DNA of 64,000 nucleotides from Capsulimonadaceae bacterium (GTDB lineage Bacteria > Armatimonadota > Armatimonadia > Armatimonadales > Capsulimonadaceae), in NCBI GenBank assembly GCA_031292625.1, contig JARLGU010000015.1, positions 248,001-312,000 on the forward strand. The letters run 5' to 3'. Below, one piece after another: positions 30,884 through 37,873 of this stretch. The position numbers and the translations under genes were made by a program. The notes beneath the pieces are model-generated. The model did no database searches. It saw nothing but the letters and a program-made list of their open reading frames with translations, and was not told the origin of the DNA. Positions within the stretch are counted from its first letter, which is position 1. The number at the start of each line of letters is the position of its first letter.

Positions 30884-32587
30884 TCATCCTGGCAGCATCA
30901 AGTGCTCAATGTAGCGGTCTTCAAAATCGGGGTCAAGGTTCAGCTCTATGATTTCGGTTTGCCCGCGAAGCGCGCTCATTTCGTCGATGATCCCAACGTC
31001 CAGCAATGCCAGGTAGGAACCAGCAAGCGACGTATTGCCGACCACCTGGATCTGGCGGGGGGCAAATTCTGGAAGCAGGCCGCTGTCGATTGCGCTTTGC
31101 AGATCGATGTGCATGCCAAAGCCACCTGCGAGATAGACGGTCTGAATCTCCTGAGGAGTAACGCCGACGCGCGAGAGAAGCGTTAGAATTCCGGCCGCGA
31201 CGGCGGCTTTTGCCTGAAGCAGCGATGCAATGTCCGTCTCCGAGATTGAAATCGGATTTCCGTCCTGACTGCTCGCCACACGAAAGGCTTTGCCGTATTC
31301 GGTCGCGATCAGGCAGTCGTCATATCTCGCCGCCTCCGCCGTGAAGCGGCCGCGGCTGTTAAGCAATCCGCTTCGTACTCCATAAGCAAGGAAATCCACG
31401 TATGCCGAGCCGCAGATTCCAGTGGCGGCGCCGCTTCCGATTTGTTCGATCTGTACGGTGTGCGCTTCGGCGTTAAGCTTAATGTGACTGATCGCGCCAT
31501 TCGTTGCCCGGATGCCATGGCTTAGCCCGGAGCCTTCAAACGCAGGCCCAGCCGCCGTGGCGCAGGCAAGAAGCCTTCCGCCGCGCCTAAGAATAATTTC
31601 GCCATTGGTGCCGACGTCGATAAGCAGGCTCGGGCCATCGTCGTAGAACAGGCCGCTTGCGAGGATCCCGGAACTCAGGTCGGCGCCTATATACGCGGCG
31701 AGGCCCGGCATCAGGTGCACCGGCGTTTGGGTTGTGTCCAGTCCAATCTGAGACGCGGTAAGCAGCGTGTAGTCAAGAAAGTTCGGGGTAAACGGAACGC
31801 TGCCCATCGGACCGGGATCGACTCCGGCGAGGAGGTGCAGCATGGTCGTGTTGGCTGACACAGTGTAGCACCGAATGTCTTCCCGCGACGCGCCTTCCTT
31901 GCGCAGCATCTCGGCGATGAGCGGCGCGATCGTATTACGCACGACAGCTTCCTGAAGTTGACCGAGAGCTCTCGGATCGGTGAGGCACAGATTGATGCGG
32001 GTGAGGACATCGTCGCCAAGCTGGATCTGGTTGTTGAAGGAGCCTTCCTGCTGCAGCACCGCCCCCGTCGCCAGTTCGACAAGCTGTGCCACAACTGTCG
32101 TGGTGCCGATGTCTATTGCCACGCCGAGCGCGCGTTCAGTGAGATGCGGGTTATATCCGACCGTCTGCCATCCATCCGGCGAGTAAGATTCAATCCATCC
32201 GGGAGCGCCAGAATTTAGGGCTCGCCAGATTGGATTGTCGGCCCGGGCGATGTTAATGCGGTACGAGGCAACGACTTGCGGGGCGTGGGACATCAGCGAT
32301 CGCATCGATACGCGAATGCGCGCATAGCCGCTTGGAGCGAGACGAGTTCGGCACCCGCGCACGGTGACCGGAGATCCGTTAACATGCACGGGCGCGAGTG
32401 TGTCGCTCGTAATGAGTTCACCTTCCAGCAGGTCAACCTGGCAGCCGTTACAGAGGCCCTTTTGCCCGCATCGGGCGTTGAGCGCAATTTCTTCGTGCCG
32501 TAGAATCTCTGAGAGGGGCCGCTCCGCGAGCGCGTGGCGAACGTTAATAGTAACCTCTCTGTTAGGGCATTCAACTACGAGCTTCAT
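30884..32587 (-). CDS. RACo-like reductive activator of corrinoid protein (2Fe-2S plus ASKHA domain)
   Basis: A 567-residue protein. Residues 1-90 are a plant-type [2Fe-2S] ferredoxin domain with Cys40, Cys46, Cys49 and a fourth Cys near 80 (RCGQKGLCNGC ... VRGC). A linker region follows, then from about 150 an actin-like ATPase domain (ALGVAIDIGTTTVVAQLVEL; SLLIDVGTNGEIILR; YLAGGFGMHIDL). This is the layout of RACo/RamA-group proteins, which use ATP to return oxidised cob(II)alamin in methyltransferases to the active Co(I) state. Its start overlaps the stop of the DUF1638 gene (ATGA). The corrinoid protein and UroD-type proteins stand divergently, which fits the function. Confidence 0.87.
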   Translation of the reverse strand: MKLVVECPNREVTINVRHALAERPLSEILRHEEIALNARCGQKGLCNGCQVDLLEGELITSDTLAPVHVNGSPVTVRGCRTRLAPSGYARIRVSMRSLMSHAPQVVASYRINIARADNPIWRALNSGAPGWIESYSPDGWQTVGYNPHLTERALGVAIDIGTTTVVAQLVELATGAVLQQEGSFNNQIQLGDDVLTRINLCLTDPRALGQLQEAVVRNTIAPLIAEMLRKEGASREDIRCYTVSANTTMLHLLAGVDPGPMGSVPFTPNFLDYTLLTASQIGLDTTQTPVHLMPGLAAYIGADLSSGILASGLFYDDGPSLLIDVGTNGEIILRRGGRLLACATAAGPAFEGSGLSHGIRATNGAISHIKLNAEAHTVQIEQIGSGAATGICGSAYVDFLAYGVRSGLLNSRGRFTAEAARYDDCLIATEYGKAFRVASSQDGNPISISETDIASLLQAKAAVAAGILTLLSRVGVTPQEIQTVYLAGGFGMHIDLQSAIDSGLLPEFAPRQIQVVGNTSLAGSYLALLDVGIIDEMSALRGQTEIIELNLDPDFEDRYIEHLMLPG

Positions 32588-33333
32588 GAGACGCTGTCCT
32601 TAGGCGCTGCGATCGTGATCACCCGGTCGTCCGCTGTCATCGCAAGCGTTTGCCCTGGTTGGAGGACGAGAAATTTCTCATCCTCCCAGTTTCCGGAGAG
32701 GAGGTCGATCAACAGTTGGGGATTGCCGCGCTGGTGATCGAAGGACCACTTCAGCCACTCGGCGCACCCTTTTGTATAGTCAATATCTTCTTGCGTCACG
32801 CCGACGCCAAGATCGACGTAGGCGGCAAGGTTGTACGCCTGAAACCAGTGCTGTTCGGATTCCATCAAGAACTCAGCATCGTCCTCGCCGTACTTCTCGA
32901 CATATTGGGCGTACAATGTGTCGTAGCGCTTTTTGCCGGGCGGGATGTGGTGACGGTTCCAGCCGGGGCTGTACCAGTACGTGCCAGGGTGTTCGCGAAC
33001 ATAATTGGCGTAGACGCGCTTATCGCCGAGCAGCAGAGTTATGCAGTCGTGGGCTCGCGGGACGACAAGCAGCGCGGCTTTGGTCGTCACCGCCTCTGTT
33101 CCGCGACTGCACAGCCCGTATCCAAGGACGATCGCCGTTGGTTTGACTTCGGACTCTACGCGGTCAATTGTTGCCTGCAGGGTAGAACGAAGCCGGTCGG
33201 GCTCATTGTGCAAGCCCTGCTCAAGCTTTTCGGCGTGGATGACCTGCGGGAGATCTTTACTGTAGTGTTCGATTTCATCTTCGAGCACCGCGCAAAACAA
33301 GACGGCTATTCGAGCGGTTCTTTCGTTTGACAT
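32584..33333 (-). CDS. DUF1638 domain protein
   Basis: A 249-residue cytoplasmic protein of the DUF1638 family: ARIAVLFCAVLEDEIEHY, AIVLGYGLCSRGTEAV and VPRAHDCITLLLGDK are recognisable blocks, with Cys residues that could bind metal. Biochemical function is not established; members are often found beside corrinoid methyltransferase genes. I chose the ATG at 33333, because AAGGA lies about 8 nt upstream and an earlier ATG at 33360 would be too close to the promoter. It overlaps the RACo-like gene by 4 nt, so both are made from one message. Confidence 0.8.
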   Translation of the reverse strand: MSNERTARIAVLFCAVLEDEIEHYSKDLPQVIHAEKLEQGLHNEPDRLRSTLQATIDRVESEVKPTAIVLGYGLCSRGTEAVTTKAALLVVPRAHDCITLLLGDKRVYANYVREHPGTYWYSPGWNRHHIPPGKKRYDTLYAQYVEKYGEDDAEFLMESEQHWFQAYNLAAYVDLGVGVTQEDIDYTKGCAEWLKWSFDHQRGNPQLLIDLLSGNWEDEKFLVLQPGQTLAMTADDRVITIAAPKDSVS

Positions 33334-33375
33334 TGCCCCGATCCTTACATGGCCTGCCAATTATCGGACAACTCT

Positions 33376-33405
33376 ATTATAGAGGTATCTCGGTACATTC
33401 GGCAA
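33376..33405 (-). promoter_or_regulatory. Promoter of the DUF1638-RACo unit
   Basis: On the minus strand: TTGCCG (33405-33400), 18-nt spacer, TATAAT (33381-33376). The -10 is perfect, the -35 moderate. Confidence 0.55.
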
Positions 33406-33742
33406 TTGACGCAATTAGCATTTTGAGGCGATGAAAGATCAAATCCTCGTATGCCGCCGAGCGAAACGCGTCGTTTCTTGAGTTGCGCCGCCAAGGTGTC
33501 TAACCTTAATTTAGCGTGCAAAATGCAAATTTTCCCGCTTACATGTGGCACACTGTACCATGCGCGGCTCGCCGCGCCCCATCGCAATCGGTATAAATCG
33601 GCCGTAGTGTGGATGGTGCGAAGAATCGTGCGTCGTAGAATGTGAACAAGCAAAACGGGCAAGGACGCCTGGCCATATTGAGGTGGCGCGATTTGCTCTT
33701 TGATGGACCAACCAACGATCGACTAAGCGACGGGAGGACGAT
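33406..33742. other. Divergent spacer in the corrinoid island
   Basis: No gene seen. It must hold the promoter for the corrinoid-protein genes, but I find no clear -35/-10 pair. A TGCAAAATGCAAATTTT stretch near 33520 has the short direct repeat TGCAAA. I looked for a cobalamin riboswitch and did not recognise one. The start of the corrinoid gene is preceded by GGGAGG at 33732. Confidence 0.4.
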
Positions 33743-34369
33743 ATGAGCGATCTTTCGATACTGACCGAGGCGATCAAGAACGGAAACCGCGCGGATGCGG
33801 TTCGGTTAACCAGTGAGGCGCTAAGCGGCGGCGATGACTTACACGCGATCCTGGCCGCGCTGGTGGATGGCATGGACGATGTCGGCCGCCGGTTCAAATC
33901 CAACGAGATTTTTGTACCCGAAGTTCTTATCGCGGCGCGGGCAATGAAAGAGAGCATGGCGCAGCTTGAGCCCAAACTGCTCGCTGCCGGAATTCGCCCG
34001 GAGTTCACGGCGGTAATCGGCACGGTTCAAGGCGACCTGCACGACATCGGCAAGAATCTGGTAGGCATGATGTGGAAGGGCGCGAACTTTAATGTCGTCG
34101 ATTTGGGTACGAACGTATCGCCAGAAAGAATCATCGATGCGGTCCGCGAGCACAAGGCAAACCTCGTTGGCTTGTCGGCCCTGCTTACGACGACGATGCC
34201 CGCGATGAAGGGGGCGGTTCAAGCGATCCGTGCGTCCGGGGTGAACGTTAAGGTTCTTGTCGGCGGAGCGCCAATCACGGGAGACTTTGCGCGTGAAATC
34301 GGCGCGGATGGGTTTGCGCCGGATGCCGCAAGCGCCGTCGAAGTCGCCAGACAGCTCGTCGCCGCGTGA
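33743..34369 (+). CDS. Corrinoid (B12-binding) methyltransferase protein
   Basis: A 208-residue corrinoid protein of the MtaC/MtbC/MtmC type. An N-terminal helical cap (residues about 5-88) precedes the Rossmann-like B12 domain. The cobalt-ligating motif is intact: GDLHDIGKN with Asp98, His100 and Gly103 (D-x-H-x-x-G). Further family marks are VVDLGTNVSPE, GLSALLTTTMPAM and VKVLVGGAPIT. The bound corrinoid carries a methyl group between a substrate-specific methyltransferase and a second one. It is followed after 93 nt by three UroD-superfamily genes and is divergent from the activator genes. Confidence 0.92.
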   Translation: MSDLSILTEAIKNGNRADAVRLTSEALSGGDDLHAILAALVDGMDDVGRRFKSNEIFVPEVLIAARAMKESMAQLEPKLLAAGIRPEFTAVIGTVQGDLHDIGKNLVGMMWKGANFNVVDLGTNVSPERIIDAVREHKANLVGLSALLTTTMPAMKGAVQAIRASGVNVKVLVGGAPITGDFAREIGADGFAPDAASAVEVARQLVAA

Positions 34370-34462
34370 TTTTGCGGGCGGCGCGGGCGATGACGCCGCG
34401 CCCTTGCAGGGTTCGCTTAAATACGGCGCGCCTGATCGTTGAATGCAGGCGCGGAGGCAACA

Positions 34463-35551
34463 ATGAGCCACGCTTCGTTAACCGGCCGAGAACGCGTGTC
34501 GCGCATGTTTGCGCGACAGGACCACGATCGCGTGCCGCGGCATGACACATTCTGGTCCGACACCATCCTACGCTGGCAGATAGAAGGTCTTTCCGGCGGA
34601 CAGGAGGCTGCCCTCGAACTCCTAGACAGCGACTTTCGACCACTCTGCTGGAGCCTTCCAGTTCCATTCCCAGGCATGAATGATATCTTGTCCGAGGACG
34701 AGTCGTCGCAGACGGTGCGTGACGCGTTTGGCAATATTAGCCGCAAGTGGAAGAACAAGGAGACCGAACCGGAGTTGCTTCGATTTGGTTGCGTCGATCG
34801 CGACGATTGGGATCAGACGTATAAGCCGCTAATGGTTACGGCGGGTCTTCACGTGGACGTAAAAGGGGCGAGGAACGCGTTCGCCGAGGCGCATCGCCGC
34901 GGACAGTGGTCGTTCTTTTCCGCGAGCGAGACTTTCGAGATGACCCGGCAGATGCTTGGCGAGGAGACTACTTTGGTCGCGATGGCGTCCGAACCCGATT
35001 TTATACGGGACGTCTCCAACATCTATACGGATCTAATCTTGCGCGATTTCGAAGCGTTGTACGAAGACGGCATCCGGCCGGACGGCATTTGGCTCTTTGG
35101 CGACATGGCGTACAACTACGGTCCGATGTGCTCCCCTGCGATGTATCGGGATCTGATATGGCCGGATCACGTCCGAATGGCGCACTGGGCGCATGCCCGC
35201 AATCTCCCCGTCATCTATCATAGCGACGGCAATGTGAGCGCCTACCTTGATCTCTACATCGAAGCCGGCTTCGACTGTATCCATCCGCTGGAGAACTGTG
35301 CTTCGTTGCACTTGCAGGACATCGGACCACGTTACGGCAAGAGCCTTTGTCTCTTCGGCAATATCGATGTCTCGATACTCGGAAGCAACGATCCTGTGCG
35401 TATCGAGCAGGAGATCTCGTCCAAGCTTGCGGCCGGCAAGAGAACCCGGGCCTATGCCTACCACTCGGATCATTCCGTGCCGGCGTCCGTTAGCTGGGAA
35501 ACATACAAGCTCGTAATCAAACTCCTCGATCACTACGGTTATTACGACTGA
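34463..35551 (+). CDS. UroD/MtaA-superfamily protein, HSDG subgroup
   Basis: A 362-residue protein of the uroporphyrinogen decarboxylase superfamily. It lacks the porphyrin-decarboxylase N-terminus and, with this context, is more likely a corrinoid-linked methyltransferase. The metal-site position reads YHSDGN rather than the H-x-C of MtaA/MtbA, so the usual zinc cysteine is missing; HIS/ASP may bind the metal instead. Other marks: GIWLFGDMAYNYGPMCSP, IHPLENCASL and LFGNIDVSIL. ATG at 34463 has GGAGG 5 nt upstream. The next two genes are distant relatives. Confidence 0.82.
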   Translation: MSHASLTGRERVSRMFARQDHDRVPRHDTFWSDTILRWQIEGLSGGQEAALELLDSDFRPLCWSLPVPFPGMNDILSEDESSQTVRDAFGNISRKWKNKETEPELLRFGCVDRDDWDQTYKPLMVTAGLHVDVKGARNAFAEAHRRGQWSFFSASETFEMTRQMLGEETTLVAMASEPDFIRDVSNIYTDLILRDFEALYEDGIRPDGIWLFGDMAYNYGPMCSPAMYRDLIWPDHVRMAHWAHARNLPVIYHSDGNVSAYLDLYIEAGFDCIHPLENCASLHLQDIGPRYGKSLCLFGNIDVSILGSNDPVRIEQEISSKLAAGKRTRAYAYHSDHSVPASVSWETYKLVIKLLDHYGYYD

Positions 35552-35602
35552 CGCGGACAAGCGCCTCCTCAGGCAGGTTACGGACAATCGGAGGAACGAT
35601 CG

Positions 35603-36763
35603 ATGCTGACGAACTTCGACTATGCGGCGCACAACGCCGAGGTGAAGGAAGTTTGGGCTGCCTATCGTGCGGGAAAGCCAATTCGGACGCCGGTGATATG
35701 GGGGATCAATACACGCTACACGATGTTCAACGACGCCGCAAATCCGCGCCGGATAACGTTCGAGCAGTATTTCAACGATCCGTCGGTAATGCTCGAAAGA
35801 CAGCTCGAGCACCAGGAGTACATTCGTCTCAACATTCCACAGGACGCAGAGATGGGCCTGCCGGCTGAAGGCTGGAATATCGGCGTCGATTTTCAGAATA
35901 CCTACGAAGCCGCGTGGTTTGGCTGCGAGATCGATTATTCGGCCGAACAGGTTCCTGATACGCGTCCGATGCTAGGCGACGACAACAAGCGCCTTCTTTT
36001 CGATCGCGGCATCCCGGATCCGTTTGAAGGCGGCTTGATGCGCAGAAATTGGTCGTTTCGCGAACATATTCTGAAGGCGCGCGAGGACGGGTTTACGTGG
36101 CGAGGCAAGCCGTTGCTCTCGGTTTCGCCTTCGGCTATGGGCACGGATGGGCCGCTGACGGTCGCTTGCAATCTCAGGGGAGCGTCGGCGTTTCTTACCG
36201 ATATGATCGAAGACCCGGATTACGCAAGGGAATTGCTGGATTATATTACCGAGGCGACGATCGTCCGGATTCAGGCGTACCGCAAGGTTCTGGGTATGCC
36301 GGACAAGACGCAGTCGTGGGGCTTTGCCGATGATAGCATCCAGTTGATTTCCTGCGCAATGTACGAAGACATGGTCTTTCCATATCACAAAAGGCTCGTG
36401 GATGCCTTTTCGACGGGAGGGCCTAATGGCGTGCACTTATGCGGCAATTCGAGCCGGCATTTCGCGTTCATGAAGCAAAATCTGGCAATCCACTCATTTG
36501 ACACGGGATTTCCAATCGATTTTACGGCCGTGCGCGAGAGCGTCGGTCCGGATGTGGAGATCCTGGGCGGTCCTTCGGTGCCGTTCCTGCAGCGGGCCGC
36601 GCCCGACCAGGTGCGCGCGGAGGTCAGGCGGATTTTAGACAGCGGCGTCCGGACAGGCGGTAAGTTTGTGCTGCGCGAGGGCAACAACCTTGCGCCCGAC
36701 ATTCCTTTCGATAATCTGGTTGCGATGTATGACGAGGGCAAGGCGTATGGCCGGTACCAGTGA
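35603..36763 (+). CDS. UroD/MtaA-superfamily protein with H-x-C motif
   Basis: A 386-residue member of the same superfamily, clearly different from its two neighbours. It has HLCGNS, the H-x-C zinc half-site of methyl-transferring members such as MtaA, MtbA and CmuA. The third, downstream Cys of that site is not obvious: the equivalent stretch reads VLREGNNLAPDIP. Other marks are QSWGFADDSIQLIS and VEILGGPSVPF. Starts at ATG 35603 behind GGAGGAACG. Probably the subunit in this island that binds zinc and the methyl acceptor or donor thiol; inference. Confidence 0.82.
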   Translation: MLTNFDYAAHNAEVKEVWAAYRAGKPIRTPVIWGINTRYTMFNDAANPRRITFEQYFNDPSVMLERQLEHQEYIRLNIPQDAEMGLPAEGWNIGVDFQNTYEAAWFGCEIDYSAEQVPDTRPMLGDDNKRLLFDRGIPDPFEGGLMRRNWSFREHILKAREDGFTWRGKPLLSVSPSAMGTDGPLTVACNLRGASAFLTDMIEDPDYARELLDYITEATIVRIQAYRKVLGMPDKTQSWGFADDSIQLISCAMYEDMVFPYHKRLVDAFSTGGPNGVHLCGNSSRHFAFMKQNLAIHSFDTGFPIDFTAVRESVGPDVEILGGPSVPFLQRAAPDQVRAEVRRILDSGVRTGGKFVLREGNNLAPDIPFDNLVAMYDEGKAYGRYQ

Positions 36764-36781
36764 AAGAATGAATTACAGCGG

Positions 36782-37873
36782 ATGACGAGTTTTTCTCGCG
36801 ACAATTTTGAGCGGATGCTGCAGAGGCGGCATCCCTACCGGTTGCCGTTCGATATCGCGTTTACTCGGCCGGTCAACGATCGGGTTCTCGAGCATTTGGG
36901 AATTGGCGACCCCGTCGTCGCATTCGATTTGGACTTTCGCGCGGTTGCAGCGCAGTACAAGGATGACGTCGCGCAGTGGCGCGCTGCCTATAGTGAGCAC
37001 GGCATTGCGATACCGGCTGGATACGATATCGGTTGGTGCGGGAATGCCACCGCGCCAATCGATCGGTCGGAATCCGCGCAGGCCCACCACATTCCTCAAA
37101 CATTTGCCCCGTTATCGGCGATCTCGTCGGTGAATGACCTGAAGTCGTTCCCGTGGCCGGACGTACAGGATGACAAGGCTTTCGATCATCTAGCGCTTCA
37201 GGTGAGCAAAATTCAGGCCGAGGAACGCGTCGCAATGGGTCTCATTGAGAGCACGGCGTTTGACCCGGCTTGCTCGTTGCGCGGGCTCGATGCTCTCGTC
37301 TACGATCTGCATGAGGGCGGCGAGATCGGCAACTGGCTGTTGGATTTCTTTACTGCGCGCTCAATTCACATCGTACGGCAGTTCTGCAAGGCCGGCGTCG
37401 ATGTCATTCGATTGGGAGACGATGTCGGGACACAGCGCGGGATGCTCATGTCGGTGGATTTTTGGCGTCAGCATATTAAGCCACGGCTCGTATCGGTCAT
37501 TAAGGAAATTTGGAATTCGCAGACTCGCCGTGTCGCAATCAGCTACAGCTCGGACGGCGATATTCGAGCGATCCTTCCCGACCTGGTCGATATGGGTATA
37601 GACATCATCCGGCCGATGCCGCCCGAGTGCATGCCGATCGACGAAGTCATCGGGCAGTATCGATCTCAGCTGGCGTTTTGGGGCATGATCGGCACCCAGT
37701 CCGTCATGCCGTTCGGCACGCCCGAGGATATTGACGGCCAGGTGCGCCACCTGGCGAATTGGGTGCGGCGTGGGGCGTCGATCATCGTTTCCCCAACGCA
37801 TGCGCTTGAGCCGGACGTCCCTTGGGACAACGTCTCGGCATTGGCGCGCGCGGTCCGGAATGCGCGGCTATAG
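36782..37873 (+). CDS. UroD/MtaA-superfamily protein, SSDG subgroup
   Basis: A 363-residue member of the superfamily. The metal-site position reads ISYSSDGD, with neither His nor Cys at the expected places. Conserved stretches include VIRLGDDVGTQRGMLMS, IIRPMPPECMPIDEVIG and AFWGMIGTQSVMPFG. It starts 18 nt after the previous stop and ends the island. It could be a substrate-specific methyltransferase, a binding protein or an enzyme that acts on the demethylated product. Confidence 0.8.
   Translation: MTSFSRDNFERMLQRRHPYRLPFDIAFTRPVNDRVLEHLGIGDPVVAFDLDFRAVAAQYKDDVAQWRAAYSEHGIAIPAGYDIGWCGNATAPIDRSESAQAHHIPQTFAPLSAISSVNDLKSFPWPDVQDDKAFDHLALQVSKIQAEERVAMGLIESTAFDPACSLRGLDALVYDLHEGGEIGNWLLDFFTARSIHIVRQFCKAGVDVIRLGDDVGTQRGMLMSVDFWRQHIKPRLVSVIKEIWNSQTRRVAISYSSDGDIRAILPDLVDMGIDIIRPMPPECMPIDEVIGQYRSQLAFWGMIGTQSVMPFGTPEDIDGQVRHLANWVRRGASIIVSPTHALEPDVPWDNVSALARAVRNARL

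Follow-up and report, generated by a model that had tools for sequence, protein, structure and literature searches.

The stretch analysed here (the window, 64,000 nucleotides (nt) of Capsulimonadaceae bacterium assembly GCA_031292625.1, contig JARLGU010000015.1, positions 248,001 to 312,000 of the forward strand) contains an island of six genes encoding a RACo-type corrinoid reductive activator, a DUF1638 protein, a corrinoid carrier protein and three proteins of the UroD/MtaA superfamily, named UroD1, UroD2 and UroD3. The island is a real, conserved corrinoid methyl-transfer unit, since its layout recurs across three phyla and is thus beyond chance. Sequence and conservation together point to UroD1 as the constant partner of the carrier, and to UroD2 and UroD3 as recurrent additional partners. 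On balance we favour a corrinoid hub, in which the UroD enzymes would load methyl groups from O-methyl-type donors onto the carrier and homocysteine would take them up; we infer both the substrate and the direction of transfer.

Gene content and layout

All six genes named in an earlier reading made from the letters alone (the sequence-only reading) are present and Pfam-supported:

30884-32587, minus strand: RACo-type corrinoid reductive activator (RACo_C_ter and Raco_middle, Pfam E 1.4e-73 and 1.2e-48)
32584-33330, minus strand: DUF1638 protein (PF07796, E 3.6e-36; ATG start, alternative TTG at 33360)
33331-33742, no strand: divergent intergenic region between the DUF1638 and corrinoid genes (from the sequence)
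33743-34369, plus strand: corrinoid carrier protein, CORR (PF02607 and PF02310; motif D-L-H-D-I-G)
34463-35551, plus strand: UroD1, constant partner, putative methyltransferase (PF01208, E 2e-12; family alignment; AlphaFold2 model)
35603-36763, plus strand: UroD2, MtaA-like, putative methyltransferase (PF01208, E 1e-24; PRK06252, E 1.5e-22; family alignment)
36782-37873, plus strand: UroD3, putative methyltransferase (PF01208, E 4e-16; family alignment; AlphaFold2 model)

The RACo-DUF1638 pair lies divergent from the corrinoid gene and the three UroD genes, and its two members share the ATGA overlap noted earlier (DUF1638 stop TGA at 32584-32586, RACo start ATG at 32585-32587). The interval first given for the island, 32584-37873, holds real genes and begins at the DUF1638 stop, leaving RACo outside. 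The D-x-H-x-x-G motif of the corrinoid protein is intact, as had been read; the top NCBIfam match of this protein is MtgC_2 at 171.5 bits, under the family cut-off of 370. RACo carries an N-terminal C-x5-C-x2-C ferredoxin-like motif with a weak Fer2 match under cut-off, and UroD1 was assigned the ATG start at 34463, with a further TTG upstream at 34439. The description of the UroD-type proteins as three unlike members holds: all match PF01208, yet they are just 19-24% identical in pairwise comparison.

Conservation of the island in other phyla

UroD1 relatives were collected from 80 loci of named genomes, mostly of Verrucomicrobiota, Planctomycetota and Armatimonadota, and these loci were searched by tblastn with the window proteins. 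Neighbourhoods were counted in 35 loci whose UroD1 reached 45% identity and whose flanks extended 5 kb or further to either side, and in a comparison set of 8 loci below 45%. The 35 loci are non-independent, many coming from related Opitutaceae metagenome-assembled genomes; the pattern nonetheless spans three phyla.

UroD1 orthologues (45-54% identity) occur in Verrucomicrobiota, Planctomycetota and Armatimonadota. An orthologous corrinoid protein is encoded in 25 of the 35 loci, on the same strand and less than 300 nt from UroD1 in 17, and those of other phyla are mostly 60-73% identical to that of the window. RACo is found in 21/35 loci (in 20 running opposite to UroD1), DUF1638 in 16/35, a homocysteine methyltransferase in 17/35 and MtaB in 4/35. 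No corrinoid protein, RACo, DUF1638 or homocysteine methyltransferase was present in any of the 8 loci with distant UroD1 relatives. Such islands also repeatedly encode orthologues of UroD2 (41-63% identity) and relatives of UroD3 (39-48%, with a single one at 32%), so that each of the three UroD proteins is found in islands with orthologous corrinoid proteins, in keeping with the earlier assignment to a corrinoid methyl-transfer module. This recurrent linkage to the corrinoid gene also makes them the best candidates for the methyltransferases of the module; the sequence-only reading had suggested a substrate-specific role for one or two of them.

In the sister island closest to that of the window (L079/L128, Fimbriimonadaceae TGS_ARM4), a RACo-DUF1638 pair diverges from MtaB, a corrinoid protein, UroD1, another UroD and UroD2; a minimal cluster (L154) consists of a corrinoid protein, a homocysteine methyltransferase, UroD1, DUF1638 and RACo, without MtaB. 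In islands of Opitutaceae, a single corrinoid protein is accompanied by as many as 11 UroD genes within approximately 21 kb. Between 8 and 11 UroD genes per corrinoid protein were seen at loci L090-L092, L095-L098, L100, L102, L103, L108, L112, L119 and L149; these islands are verrucomicrobial, mostly Opitutaceae/Opitutae, and often include a homocysteine methyltransferase. At L082 (13512-15332) a UroD domain appears by eye to be fused to a corrinoid domain in a CmuA-like manner, in a cluster that also holds MtaB, a separate corrinoid protein and RACo.

All 18 genomes sampled from the family and order of the window were without UroD1 relatives (at E 1e-10), DUF1638 and MtaB. The set was therefore either acquired by horizontal transfer or retained in this genome after loss in its relatives.

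Active sites and folds of the UroD proteins

UroD1 reads HSDG at 253-256, and in the family alignment H253, E277, D336 and H337 are invariant and D255 nearly so. The spacing of its His-x-Asp-x21-Glu is similar to the His-x-Cys-x21-Glu zinc ligands of MetE. UroD2 reads HLCG at 278-281 with H278-x-C280 invariant in its family, and has REGNN at 358-362 where Methanosarcina mazei MtaA (4ay7), to which it is 28.6% identical over 185 aligned positions, carries the third ligand Cys. UroD3 reads SSDG at 256-259 in a family with H-x-D and invariant E282 and H340; H340 is kept in the window copy. The three motifs are thus as first read, with the difference that SSDG is peculiar to the window copy: 11 UroD3 relatives show HSDG or HCDG, and only in the window copy is the His replaced by Ser.

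In the published scheme, thiol methyltransferases are recognised by His-Cys-Cys sites, and O-methyl enzymes by ligands that are carboxylates or have been lost (PMC10418091). Because the metal-site positions of UroD1 and UroD3 hold His, Asp and Glu and not His-Cys-Cys, action on an O-bound methyl group is suggested for both, and the mixed His-Cys site of UroD2 would make it intermediate; these assignments from predicted metal sites are the less certain part of the analysis. As a caution, the methanol enzyme MtaB works with thiolates.

Structure prediction, as proposed by the sequence-only reading, gave AlphaFold2 models of UroD1 (pLDDT 93.6) and UroD3 (pLDDT 86.2) that both show the UroD/MtaA barrel, the closest folds to the UroD1 model being UroD 2inf and MtaA 4ay7. 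The top Foldseek ranks for the two models were UroD, MtaA and MetE folds, with no hint of a substrate. Sequence searches of the PDB gave, apart from one chance match, just MtaA 4ay7 and UroD enzymes, whose identity was low, again with no substrate hint, and profile search found no PDB chain of MtvB, OdmB or MtoB.

Methyl-transfer genes elsewhere in the genome

Genome-wide statements are based on family profile searches together with DNA stretches of the organism's own genome (Armatimonadota, 5.77 Mb, 96% complete). RACo, located in the window, and DUF1638 are each single-copy. MtbC-type corrinoid proteins number two, the window copy and one on contig C37. The latter stands in a row (L028, 7346-10781) with the sole MtaB of the genome (PF12176, 529.6 bits; NCBIfam MtaB, 394.5 bits, under the cut-off of 720) and an MtaA-like UroD with H-x-C plus a later Cys. 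This row is probably a methanol methyltransferase set by its sequences; it has no activator of its own and must depend on the window RACo, because the genome has no other. No MttB was found genome-wide (PF06253 search). The earlier statement that there is no MttB or MtaB thus stands for MttB in the whole genome and for MtaB in the island, and fails for MtaB in the genome as a whole.

The pterin-binding domain PF00809 occurs only in a folP-like gene and in MetH, with no stand-alone folate:corrinoid methyltransferase in the genome. MetH is complete, with five domains including its own activation domain, and so needs no RACo. MetF is present, and a stand-alone homocysteine methyltransferase with zinc motifs GANCG and GGCCG is encoded on contig C34. 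The genome also encodes heme-copper oxidase subunit I and several PhyH-type dioxygenases, and an oxygen-using lifestyle is therefore likely, as read from these genes.

Proposed function and alternatives

By analogy with the known families, RACo, using ATP and an electron donor, would return the carrier cobalt to Co(I) with the assistance of DUF1638, a pair tied genetically to B12 reactivation in Phaeobacter (PMC5764234). The UroD-fold enzymes would take up methylated substrates in their barrels and transfer the methyl group to Co(I), with UroD1 as the constant loader and UroD2 and UroD3 as additional loaders of other specificities. Methylated sugars or methoxylated aromatics, as named by the sequence-only reading, may be among these substrates. 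The methyl group would then pass to homocysteine, through the C34 homocysteine methyltransferase or MetH, to give methionine. Homocysteine appears the best acceptor candidate. A stand-alone folate:corrinoid methyltransferase is an unlikely exit because pterin-binding domains are confined to folP and MetH, and coenzyme M, also considered as acceptor, is likewise unlikely given the absence of ComA from the genome. The sole RACo would in addition serve the C37 methanol set. The minimal cluster L154, with UroD1 and a homocysteine methyltransferase and no MtaB, favours UroD1 as a loader.

Some observations weigh against this reading. UroD3, having lost its His, may be inactive or changed. The C34 homocysteine methyltransferase lies outside the island and is just 38-48% identical to the cluster copies. 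Some related islands contain a pterin-binding methyltransferase or MetF, so that the exit route may differ between lineages. Finally, UroD1-family genes stand directly beside MtaB in many Armatimonadota, which an unloading role would fit as well.

The last point underlies the main rival to UroD1 as a loader, in which UroD1 would act as partner of MtaB on the unloading side. The island would then form one half of a split methanol system, supplying carrier, activator and unloading enzyme to an MtaB on C37, and UroD1 would pass the methyl group from methyl-cobalt to an acceptor in the manner of MtaA. In the sister island L079/L128, MtaB is directly followed by the orthologous corrinoid gene and UroD1, and the RACo-DUF1638 pair points the other way; of 27 Armatimonadota genomes with MtaB, at least 10 have a UroD1-family gene less than 300 nt away from it, mostly less than 40 nt; and RACo is single-copy. 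Yet the C37 MtaB has a corrinoid protein and an MtaA-like UroD of its own, MtaB is missing from most UroD1 clusters, L154 included, and UroD1 lacks the cysteine ligands of MtaA. We regard this arrangement as rather improbable, though it is the strongest of the alternatives. The sequence-only reading had itself held that a dedicated, co-regulated MtaB-type gene elsewhere would speak against its proposal; a dedicated MtaB does exist on C37 beside its own corrinoid protein and must share the window RACo, which goes half of the way to that objection.

A salvage cluster for methyl-sulfur or methyl-selenium compounds, of the type 1 MGC kind, would have the same parts list, no folate methyltransferase nearby and an MtaA-like protein with H-x-C, as UroD2 is. 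Nearly all type 1 MGC proteins have His-Cys-Cys sites, are co-directionally encoded and come from obligate anaerobes (PMC10418091), whereas none of the UroD proteins of the island shows His-Cys-Cys, the RACo gene runs the other way and a heme-copper oxidase is encoded in the genome, all of which makes this identity unlikely.

Still less probable is that the UroD proteins act without the corrinoid protein, the genes being neighbours by chance or for some other purpose, as for most of the 26 UroD genes of the genome. Most of these have no corrinoid gene nearby, several stand beside PhyH and AraC genes, and 10 of the 35 UroD1 loci have no corrinoid gene within 10 kb; against this, the corrinoid gene and UroD1 are close same-strand neighbours across three phyla in nearly half of the loci, an association absent in distant relatives. 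We give the least credence to a split methionine synthase as in Phaeobacter, in which the corrinoid protein, RACo and DUF1638 would make methionine from methyl-folate with the UroD proteins incidental: RACo, DUF1638 and an MtbC-like corrinoid protein do belong to the split MetH of that organism (PMC5764234) and the homocysteine methyltransferases of related clusters would fit, but the genome has a complete MetH with activation domain and no stand-alone pterin-binding methyltransferase, and UroD1 and the corrinoid gene travel together in related islands.

Beyond the corrinoid hub itself, we tentatively suggest a wider generalization: one carrier might serve a whole series of UroD-fold demethylases (three in this island, as many as 11 in Opitutaceae) with carboxylate sites, each acting on one O-methylated compound, for example methylated sugars, and passing the methyl group to homocysteine with no folate:corrinoid methyltransferase, as a separate class in Armatimonadota, Verrucomicrobiota and Planctomycetota.

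Relation to known systems

The sequence-only reading took the lack of an MtvB-like gene as the mark of a new enzyme type. That argument fails, since the known O-demethylase components MtvB, OdmB, VdmB, MtoB and CdmB are themselves UroD-superfamily proteins (PMC13222342, PMC10418091); UroD-fold substrate methyltransferases are accordingly a known kind. In common with MtvABC, OdmABCD, Vdm, MtoABCD and CdmBCA, the island has UroD-superfamily proteins in the place of methyltransferase I, a small corrinoid protein and a RACo-type activator. It holds both the D-x-H-x-x-G corrinoid protein and the activator of a three-component system, and its TIM-barrel partner would be supplied by the UroD/MtaA fold of the UroD1 and UroD3 models, with linkage to the corrinoid gene. 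Sharing of one corrinoid protein, MtoC, by the paralogues MtoB1 and MtoB2 (PMC8630106) matches the multi-UroD form of the island. These known systems include a pterin-type methyltransferase II, which the island lacks and for which the genome offers just MetH; DUF1638 is an addition of the island, and MtvB and OdmB were compared by description rather than by sequence.

With type 1 MGC the island shares a corrinoid protein, an activator and the lack of a folate methyltransferase, and perhaps the presence of two or more MtaA-like/UroD proteins. It differs in its divergent activator, its sites (HSD, HLC without the third Cys, and SSD), its DUF1638 and its oxidase-bearing genome, which would point to a lifestyle unlike that of the obligate anaerobes of that class. 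The identity of UroD2 to MtaA, counted over the aligned half, lies above the 25% line of PMC10418091; UroD1 and UroD3 match MtaA models weakly. As to MtaABC, MtaB is found next to UroD1 and the orthologous corrinoid protein in related islands of Armatimonadota, Verrucomicrobia and Planctomycetes, whereas the window island has no MtaB, and the cysteine ligands of MtaA are missing from UroD1 and UroD3. The split MetH and MtgBCD systems of Roseobacters (PMC5764234, PMC12478193) share an MtbC/MtgC-like corrinoid protein and the RACo and DUF1638 reactivation pair, and a homocysteine methyltransferase occurs in clusters related to the island; here, in contrast, there is no MttB/MtgB, MetH is complete, UroD enzymes stand instead, and the corrinoid protein misses the MtgC family cut-off.

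The kind of system is therefore known. Its multi-enzyme form is undescribed as far as the searchable open-licence papers go, since no account of multi-UroD corrinoid islands from Armatimonadota, Verrucomicrobia or Planctomycetes was found there, as judged by title and abstract. Genomes of Planctomycetota, Verrucomicrobiota and Armatimonadota hold many UroD-family genes, to which a shared carrier and activator give a testable role. Corrinoid demethylation would extend to an oxidase-bearing lineage, and the island suggests that methyl groups, whose source may be plant or algal polymers, could be harvested in a way that bypasses the customary folate step.

Flanking sequences and other UroD genes

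Riboswitch control of the divergent region was considered and rejected, as Rfam searches of the window and six related islands gave no riboswitch; the sole window match at E up to 1 was a sub-threshold chance match elsewhere in the region searched. Promoter and terminator matches showed no excess over shuffle expectation. Upstream, on the RACo side of the island, lie an acyltransferase and an O-methyltransferase gene, neither of which was seen in related islands with inspected gene lists. Downstream of UroD3, the neighbour from 38202 resembles by eye a Suf (iron-sulfur assembly) operon.

Among the genome's UroD matches no canonical HemE was recognised; the strongest URO-D match (L001, 1489-2508, contig C6) is of MtaA/CmuA type, with H-x-C and a later Cys, and is not HemE. 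In a relative (G059, contig C4:136512-137850), MtaB lies in two adjoining frames, perhaps through a frameshift or an assembly error. A trio of a UroD-family gene, a PhyH-like (phytanoyl-CoA-dioxygenase-like) gene and an AraC-type regulator recurs in the window genome at L032 (8172-11152), L033 (7983-10998), L034 (3089-6022), L038 (7995-10875) and L040 (8719-11656), and a UroD-PhyH pair without AraC stands at L039 (6594-8731); PhyH is Pfam-confirmed at each of the six loci and AraC at four, the AraC of L038 being assigned by eye.

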